Origin: a virus
Length of the DNA stretch: 27,679 nt
Reading direction: 5' to 3' (one strand)
IMG/VR virus record: IMGVR_UViG_3300037847_002959
Span: 1 to 27,679 of that record
Both the position numbers and the translations under genes were made by a program. The notes beneath the pieces are model-generated. The model was not told the DNA's origin and did not search any database. It saw only the letters and a program-made list of their open reading frames with translations. Position 1 is the first letter of the stretch. Each line of letters begins with the position of its first letter. Shown one piece after another: positions 26,814 through 27,679 of this stretch.

Positions 26814-26950
26814 TCTTTTGCCTGTTCTTCCATTAACTGCTTTTCCAATTCAGCTATTCTACGCTTTAAAATTATATTCTCATTGGACAGTCGCTGTACC
26901 CATTGTGGCCAACTCTCCATCTTCTTTCCTGTTGGTTCGTATATATTCAT
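26810..26950 (-). CDS. Coiled-coil mini-protein (46 aa)
   Basis: Starts at the ATG overlapping the preceding stop (ATGA, 26947-26950) and ends in ATGA with the next gene. The sequence MNIYEPTGKKMESWPQWVQR is followed by a charged helix ENIILKRRIAELEKQLMEEQAKE that is a likely short coiled coil (hydrophobic I/L residues spaced in a heptad). Function is unknown; an oligomerising helper or regulator in the pre-packaging micro-ORF chain is possible. Confidence 0.55.
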   Translation of the reverse strand: MNIYEPTGKKMESWPQWVQRLSNENIILKRRIAELEKQLMEEQAKE

Positions 26951-27141
26951 TCCTCATCCTCAAGATCCATGTCACATTCAAACTCAATGACATCCTCTTT
27001 GTAATATTCCTTGGCTGCGTTAACCATACATTGAACAATTGATTCATCCGCTAAATCCGATTCCTCAGACCAGCGATGAATCAAATTCTTAAACTCATGG
27101 GTGCATTGTCTTATTGCGTTTGGCATGATTTCTAAAGTCAT
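26947..27141 (-). CDS. Small acidic protein (64 aa)
   Basis: MTLEIMPNAIRQCTHEFKNLIHRWSEESDLADESIVQCMVNAAKEYYKEDVIEFECDMDLEDEE: two helices and a strongly acidic tail. Uniform composition with the other small ORFs and an ATGA overlap with the next gene support it. It overlaps the previous ORF by 47 nt; a later in-frame ATG at 27126 is an alternative start. Function not recognised. Confidence 0.55.
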   Translation of the reverse strand: MTLEIMPNAIRQCTHEFKNLIHRWSEESDLADESIVQCMVNAAKEYYKEDVIEFECDMDLEDEE

Positions 27142-27295
27142 CTATTCTGTCAGGCATTTGCCTGGGCGTTTTTGTACGGTAAACTTTACCATCTGAATTG
27201 ATTGCAAGTTGGTTCTTATTCCAAAATCTTAACCATGCAGATTGCATCACCTCGTATGACACTTGGCATTCATTTCCTTCCATAAAGTCGTCCAT
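27095..27295 (-). CDS. Small hypothetical protein (66 aa)
   Basis: Its ATG at 27295 begins one base after the methyltransferase-like stop, implying translation coupling. MDDFMEGNECQVSYEVMQSAWLRFWNKNQLAINSDGKVYRTKT is followed by a basic tail (RNHAKRNKTMHP). The first part overlaps, in another frame, a residual methyltransferase ending, so it may have arisen by overprinting. The AWLRFW and VYRTKT segments look like a normal small fold. No function is known. Confidence 0.5.
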   Translation of the reverse strand: MDDFMEGNECQVSYEVMQSAWLRFWNKNQLAINSDGKVYRTKTPRQMPDRIDDFRNHAKRNKTMHP

Positions 27296-27296
27296 G

Positions 27297-27679
27297 CTAG
27301 TTCTGCTGTTTGTGGGACAACTCCATTCCCCAAGAGCCTAAGTCTGTCCACCCTGTGCTGAGTCCCATGAGTTGCTCCACCCAATTCGGATTGAGCTTGC
27401 CCAAGGTTTTTCTTTCCGTTGCTTGCCCCGTTAGTGTGTCCTCCTTTTTTGTCCCCACTCTCGCTTTGTTCATGCACCATTCCCCTGCATCCCTTGACCT
27501 CGGTGTTGCCCACGACCCGTGGTTCTTCCCACTCGTACTGCTCTTCTCCGGGTCTTGCAGGCCAGCGTGTTTCTTCGCTTCCTCCGCTAGTATCTTGCCC
27601 CCCGTTCCGGGCTTGCGACTGCCTGGGTTGCCTGCTCGTGGGGTTGGCCAATTCATCTGATTGTAAATGTCGCAAGTCT
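27297..27679 (-). CDS. Phage cytosine-methyltransferase-like protein, C-terminal part
   Basis: The frame is open at the right edge, so only the last 126 residues are visible. NWPTPRAGNPGSRKPGTGG, WATPRSRDAGEW and LNPNWVEQLMGLSTGWTDL near the end are typical of the target-recognition/C-terminal portion of phage C5-cytosine DNA methyltransferases, which modify phage DNA to resist host restriction. The catalytic PCQ and ENV motifs would be outside the window. The stop (27297-27299) is followed after one base by the next ATG. In the minus-one frame the same bases encode RVDRLRLLGNGVVPQTAELAW, the usual terminal motif of such enzymes, so the tail may be frameshifted. Confidence 0.72.
   Translation of the reverse strand, partial: TCDIYNQMNWPTPRAGNPGSRKPGTGGKILAEEAKKHAGLQDPEKSSTSGKNHGSWATPRSRDAGEWCMNKARVGTKKEDTLTGQATERKTLGKLNPNWVEQLMGLSTGWTDLGSWGMELSHKQQN

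Follow-up and report, generated by a model that had tools for sequence, protein, structure and literature searches.

The small chain of M.EcoHK31I, a C5-cytosine methyltransferase acting at YGGCCR, reportedly lies in another reading frame inside the gene of the large chain, a finding credited to Lee et al. 1995. This enzyme is the nearest precedent for the locus described here, which would likewise be divided between two polypeptides, with motif IX in the second and motifs I–VIII and X in the first. M.EcoHK31I is named as a naturally split enzyme in a passage of PMC3439449, and a passage of PMC3404938 assigns motifs I–VIII and X to its larger chain and motif IX to its smaller chain, and places the predicted target-recognition domain (TRD) in the large chain rather than the small one. 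For M.AquI, another split C5 methyltransferase, the same source describes the smaller chain as the remainder of the enzyme, including motifs IX–X (passage in PMC3404938).

The window analysed here is the whole virus record IMGVR_UViG_3300037847_002959 (27,679 bases), at the end of which a methylase gene can be read in two frames, A and B, where A is the +1 frame of B. We consider it likely that this locus encodes a C5-cytosine DNA methyltransferase that is split by nature, each frame of the shared DNA yielding one of its two chains. The alpha chain, in frame B, would supply the AdoMet/catalytic domain (motifs I–VIII) together with the closing motif X, its two parts being joined by a disordered linker that would be mostly a passenger reading of the DNA encoding beta. 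The beta chain, in frame A, would supply the target-recognition region and motif IX, and its N-terminal part would in turn be largely a passenger reading of the DNA encoding alpha. One Shine-Dalgarno sequence would feed two starts in different frames, either 4 nt apart (ATGAATG) or overlapping (ATGTG), such that both chains would be translated from one mRNA, assemble into one enzyme and have methylation activity.

Unlike M.EcoHK31I, this arrangement appears to place the recognition region with motif IX in the small chain, as judged from the selection pattern and the model of alpha; selection between motifs VIII and X follows frame A and the alpha linker is predicted to be disordered, and we thus do not find the TRD in the large subunit. 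The loci described here differ from M.EcoHK31I also in that frame A remains open along almost the entire gene and has a start codon paired with that of frame B, in that they are carried by phages and prophages, and in that motif X can move to the second frame. Loci L210, L231, L270 and L321 resemble the M.AquI division, although, set beside M.AquI by its description, the loci here have a beta frame that runs back through the alpha gene. Among phage protein families, phrog_1008 and phrog_363 (both ‘DNA methyltransferase’) match the A chains (E 1.6e-74 for L004) and the B chains, respectively; PHROGs treats them as separate whole-enzyme families and gives no sign that the two are nested in a single gene. 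Depositors annotated both overlapping frames as (cytosine) methyltransferases in Escherichia phage K1ind2 and Paenibacillus phage Tadhana, and the relevant rows of these records give no mechanism or relation between the two ORFs. We found no description of such a two-frame overlap in phage methylases among the titles and abstracts listed by searches of open-licence literature.

The window and its overlapping frames

The long ORFs of the window are mostly on the minus strand. Its genes include those for a major head protein (PHROG E 2.2e-58) and the large subunit of a terminase (PHROG E 2e-6). The methylase gene occupies positions 27247-27679 of the minus strand, where the contig end cuts off its 5′ half (Table 1). 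Both frames are open to the contig end: frame A for 126 codons, with a translation ending in ...LNPNWVEQLMGLSTGWTDLGSWGMELSHKQQN*, and frame B, the −1 frame of A, for 143 codons, with a translation ending in ...HRVDRLRLLGNGVVPQTAELAWTTLWKEMNAKCHTR*. Frame B ends in RVDRLRLLGNGVVP, which has the GN.V form of motif X, the motif that closes the large domain. The end of frame A consists of LNPNWVEQLMGLSTGWTDL plus a tail, and GWTDL in this IX-like segment is the +1 reading of the codons for RVDRL in motif X of frame B, the same bases being common to both motifs. In a profile search of the window, frame B also matched phrog_1008. An equivalent of the conserved WPARPGEEQYEWEEPRV element is found in frame A of L210 and L231, in which motif X is in frame A. 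Judging from the sequences of the close relatives L008, L009 and L010, we infer that the missing 5′ end of the gene would contain motifs I–VIII and a paired start.

Table 1. Positions of the features at the methylase end of the window.
Feature	Position	Strand	Remarks
Frame B	27247..27678	-	3′ part of the proposed alpha chain of a C5-cytosine methyltransferase; phrog_363 E 5.3e-6; full-length relatives match PF00145
Frame A (B+1)	27297..27677	-	3′ part of the proposed beta chain: putative target-recognition region, W(P/A)TP modules, motif-IX-like segment; phrog_1008 E 6.1e-5
Motif X, frame B, RVDRLRLLGNGVVP	27313..27354	-	Wobble back in frame B at motif X in relatives
Conserved frame-B element WPARPGEEQYEWEEPRV, upstream of motif X	27514..27564	-	
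Motif-IX-like segment, frame A, LNPNWVEQLMGLSTGWTDL	27339..27395	-	
Third-frame ORF, 66 aa	27095..27295	-	Conserved downstream gene

The 66-residue ORF that the initial annotation had noted in a third frame, starting at 27295, is present as described and is a separate conserved downstream gene. It starts 1 base after the frame-A stop (TAG C ATG) and is 82% identical over all 66 aa in L158, L146, L142 and L063. Its position suggests coupled re-initiation from beta. The ORF is also seen after the frame-A stop in L010. A further conserved ORF of 64 aa (26947-27141, minus strand), which overlaps the 66-aa ORF and is 78% identical in L146, L142, L063 and L158, has no PHROG match.

Distribution, selection and start codons in relatives

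Relatives confirmed in viral contigs numbered 277 for frame A and 264 for frame B, and the best 80 of each were retained. A profile built from six diverse A chains led to at least 347 confirmed places in bacterial and archaeal genomes and at least 553 in viral contigs, 80 being retained from each of the two sets, and a wider search gave A-type matches in 116 phage records and 9 plasmid records. Loci were picked by similarity to A or B and not by frame relation. Frame A was found in 323 of 323 loci, and in all 296 loci where a C5 catalytic ORF overlaps it, it lies in the +1 frame of that ORF; these counts are not independent, as the loci are related, and some are overlapping pieces of one contig, such that independent contigs are fewer than loci. 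At the other 27 loci, the stored sequence starts no more than three bases before the A ORF does and the catalytic part is cut off; across the 323 loci, A-type sequence lacking an overlapping C5 ORF occurs only at contig ends. The initial annotation had raised the prospect of homologues with the visible frame only. Instead, A was B+1 in every testable locus, and, except for the IX segment of L247, the A-type sequence assigned to the TRD and IX was in none of them part of the chain that carries motifs I–VIII, as it would be in a one-chain enzyme.

The two-frame loci come from phage genomes, viral contigs and bacterial genomes. A-type sequence is found +1 to an annotated methylase in C75C1, C72C1, Acinetobacter phage ABMM1, Synechococcus phage S-H1 and Paenibacillus larvae phages, and the arrangement is common to many phages and prophages, where it is usually annotated as one ordinary gene. 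Frame B of relatives matches PF00145 (E 8.8e-33 for L012, 1.6e-32 for L002 and 6.5e-34 for L005), with motifs I–VIII in one chain. On one Roseovarius chromosome (L216-L220), five split-methylase copies have identical match scores, and are perhaps repeated prophages or an assembly effect.

Stop codons in frame A were counted against a null in which synonymous codons were shuffled within each gene, preserving both the B protein and its codon use. In a first set of 64 distinct loci, made up of 60 viral-contig members of the window's family and 4 loci from phage records, frame A contains 8 stops where 332 are expected, with 3 against 186.8 from the start to motif VIII and 5 against 145.3 from VIII to X; the same B-preserving shuffles revealed no comparable depletion in the +2 frame or the three reverse frames. 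For the second set, the test excluded 67 loci in which the regex motifs were missing; here 46 genome loci have 12 frame-A stops versus 92.2 expected before VIII and 5 versus 47.1 between VIII and X, and 42 viral loci have none versus 82.1 and none versus 35.8. Of 12 candidate canonical one-chain C5 genes taken from the same bacterial genomes, 6 escaped recognition by the regex and were dropped; the six that remained have 39 stops in the +1 frame versus 44.8 and 49 versus 49.8, and none of the six is stop-free. Depletion is weaker (31 versus 58.4 and 8 versus 24.2) at 16 further loci of those genomes in which the PF00145 match ends early.

Differences between related loci were then assigned to the first, second and third positions of frame-B codons (B1/B2/B3). 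Among 28 disjoint pairs from the first set, they number 191/95/299 over 3384 codons before motif VIII and 166/59/69 over 1656 codons between VIII and X. The corresponding counts in 43 other disjoint pairs are 525/261/1133 of 5256 codons and 321/112/93 of 1368 codons, and at motif X they are 112/52/180 of 776 codons. Neighbouring genes, which served as a control, gave 191/95/372 of 2544 codons; the control ORF pairs for the 43-pair comparison were the 19 that could be matched. Because position 1 of B is position 3 of A, free variation passes from the wobble position of frame B to that of frame A, a pattern indicating that the more important protein is B as far as motif VIII, A from there to X, and B once more at X itself. 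In the stretch from VIII to X, changes silent in A alone are seen at 2.45 times the expected rate, and changes silent in B alone at 0.47 times. Before VIII, the observed-to-expected ratio of B-silent changes that create a stop in A is 0.47, versus 1.74 in control genes. From the start to VIII, changes silent in both frames exceed those silent in B only (5.28 versus 2.10), but since control genes have the same excess in weaker form (3.18 versus 1.98), we claim just weak protein-level constraint for the N-terminal half of A. The dual coding and the switch of frame along the gene are established computationally in this way, and purifying selection acts on both frames. The view of the initial annotation that both readings of the methylase terminus are genuine methylase sequence is borne out, and so is its emphasis on their overlap; each frame has separate relatives and both are under selection.

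Paired starts are likewise observed in relatives. The start of B reads V/M-D-(N/S)-TQNI in 38 of the 64 first-set loci, and in those 38 the start of A overlaps it, as ATG-TG (ATGTG; ATG in A, GTG in B) in 34 and as GTG-TG in 4. An upstream in-frame ATG for B is absent in 22 of the 38, and an SD-like 4-mer precedes the paired starts in 37 of 38, versus 29% of random positions. Of the 81 scored loci of the second set, 72 have A open to within 30 nt of the B start; the ATG of A comes exactly 4 nt after the B start (ATGAATG) in 65 of those 72. The Asn-2 codon of B, which creates this ATG, is AAT in 55 of 56 cases, versus 35 AAT to 111 AAC among other Asn codons of the same genes, in a count drawn from 58 distinct loci with an M/V-(N/R)-EL start, to which a general A/T preference near starts may contribute. 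Frame A opens only later in 9 of the 81 scored loci, and also in the P. larvae phages, S-H1 and C72C1.

Division of motifs and predicted structures

The numbering of the motifs and their consensus forms follow general usage for C5 methyltransferases and a passage of PMC3404938. A motif search placed X in frame B and IX in frame A in 161 of 171 distinct loci, IX being identified in this count by motif form and order. In L210, L231, L270 and L321, frame A carries first IX and then X, and the frame-B stop comes within about 10 to 50 residues of motif VIII; in L255, X is in A and frame B continues, but lacks X. That B continues from VIII to X where it carries X is as predicted for complementing parts of one enzyme. 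L060 and L234 scored in both frames, which is probably a regex artefact. L247 has motif IX in frame B, as if an indel had moved it out of frame A, and this exception for the IX segment is probably a decayed or mis-sequenced copy. When beta (57 rows) was compared by hhalign with the tails of seven canonical C5 proteins (5 of 12 genes, unrecognised by the regex, were left out), IX aligned with IX, although not significantly (E 0.32), and the tails of the five loci with X in A matched the canonical tails only at X (E 0.0064, probability 5.9%).

The fold of alpha was computed with AF2 for L038, a close relative with a short linker. The model is confident at residues 1-171 and 240-263, with pLDDT mostly above 90 at 11-170 and about 95 around 241-260, and the linker that overlaps beta (176-237) has pLDDT below 50 almost throughout. 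It matches M.HhaI with Z 22.7 (196 residues aligned, rmsd 2.9 Å), spanning M.HhaI from residue 10 to the C-terminus at 327, and M.HaeIII with Z 19.1; by sequence, alpha of L038 aligns with M.HaeIII at residues 2-161 only, up to motif VIII. Together, the AF2 model and the structure matches suggest that alpha resembles the large domain with motif X, but without the small domain. For the isolated TRD-IX fragment of beta, AF2 gave a low-confidence prediction (pLDDT 62.5, pTM 0.22) with no usable fold. Beta chains have no Pfam match at a meaningful E-value (a single stray match has E 0.16) and no NCBIfam match, and a search of PDB sequences with the beta profile gave nothing up to E 10. Motif order and form, the alpha model and the loci with X in frame A point to beta comprising the TRD and motif IX.

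Competing explanations and significance

Programmed ribosomal frameshifting, which the initial annotation had considered, would join motifs I–VIII of frame B to the recognition region and motif IX of frame A in one chain. The coding order, with I–VIII in B, TRD-IX in A and X in B, fits a one-chain enzyme, and phrog_1008 unites A-type sequence and motif X in one profile. Yet a shift at motif VIII needs no open frame A upstream, where A has 3 stops versus 187 expected, and A has its own conserved start codon, paired with that of B, and stays open far upstream of any shift that would be needed. Conserved slippery sequences were sought, and canonical −1-type heptamers lie within 15 codons of VIII in 2 of 64 loci and equally near X in 4 of them. 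Furthermore, the codons of IX and X physically overlap, such that one ribosome cannot read both in full, and we regard frameshifting as highly improbable. It is also unlikely, in our judgement, that frame A encodes an independent overprinted protein, such as a regulator or an anti-restriction factor, instead of a methylase subunit. In favour of this reading, beta has no database match giving a tested function and its fragment fold is not confident; however, alpha appears to be without a small domain (its linker has mostly pLDDT <50), A-type sequence has an IX-like motif where the motif order calls for one and is fused to motif X in L210, L231, L270 and L321, where B ends soon after VIII, and it lacks an overlapping C5 ORF only at contig ends.

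The initial annotation had also proposed an ancient or recent frameshift, or the overprinting of a new gene on a relic. A frameshift relic, pseudogene or sequencing error might be suspected because the window is a contig end and L247 resembles such a broken copy, but we give this explanation practically no credence: the two-frame state is conserved in 296 of 296 testable loci from independent genomes, which already refutes it, and purifying selection in both frames speaks against both a frameshift and a relic. Hardly any weight, similarly, can be given to the idea that frame A is open and similar only through conservation of B, as a shadow of codon bias. Although a conserved gene will give similarity in any of its shifted frames, the B-preserving shuffles, the four other frames and the canonical one-chain genes all speak against a shadow, and wobble moves to A3 between VIII and X, a position of the freely varying sites that already refutes it.

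Returning to the split, dual-coded methyltransferase, we are inclined to think, with some reserve, that it represents a widespread kind of phage ‘relay’ gene, in which one ribosome-binding site (RBS) would serve two starts, complementary subunits would be dual-coded along nearly the whole gene, the functional frame would alternate (B to motif VIII, A for TRD-IX, B for X), and X could be transferred between frames. Many phage and prophage genes annotated as a single ‘DNA cytosine methyltransferase’ probably encode two-subunit enzymes with just one of the halves annotated, and a clone of that ORF by itself would yield protein that is inactive or lacks specificity. Such loci offer a naturally replicated case of same-strand dual coding with a likely function that can be named for each frame, in which the origin of overlapping genes, the sharing of one RBS by two starts and the division of selection between frames are directly testable.

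Two further observations concern the variability of frame A. In L057, L071, L097, L148, L156 and L163, the IX segment takes a variant form (for example, LNPNWVESLMLGRGMTGWTQLPTEW) in which residues are inserted around the usual LMGLxxGWT. In frame A of L008-L163 (for example, L063, L066, L012 and L013), the W(P/A)TP modules vary in number and order, as in NWPTPRAGNPGSRKPGTGGKILAEEAKK, as if shuffled by recombination; this variation is possibly a source of changing sequence specificity.
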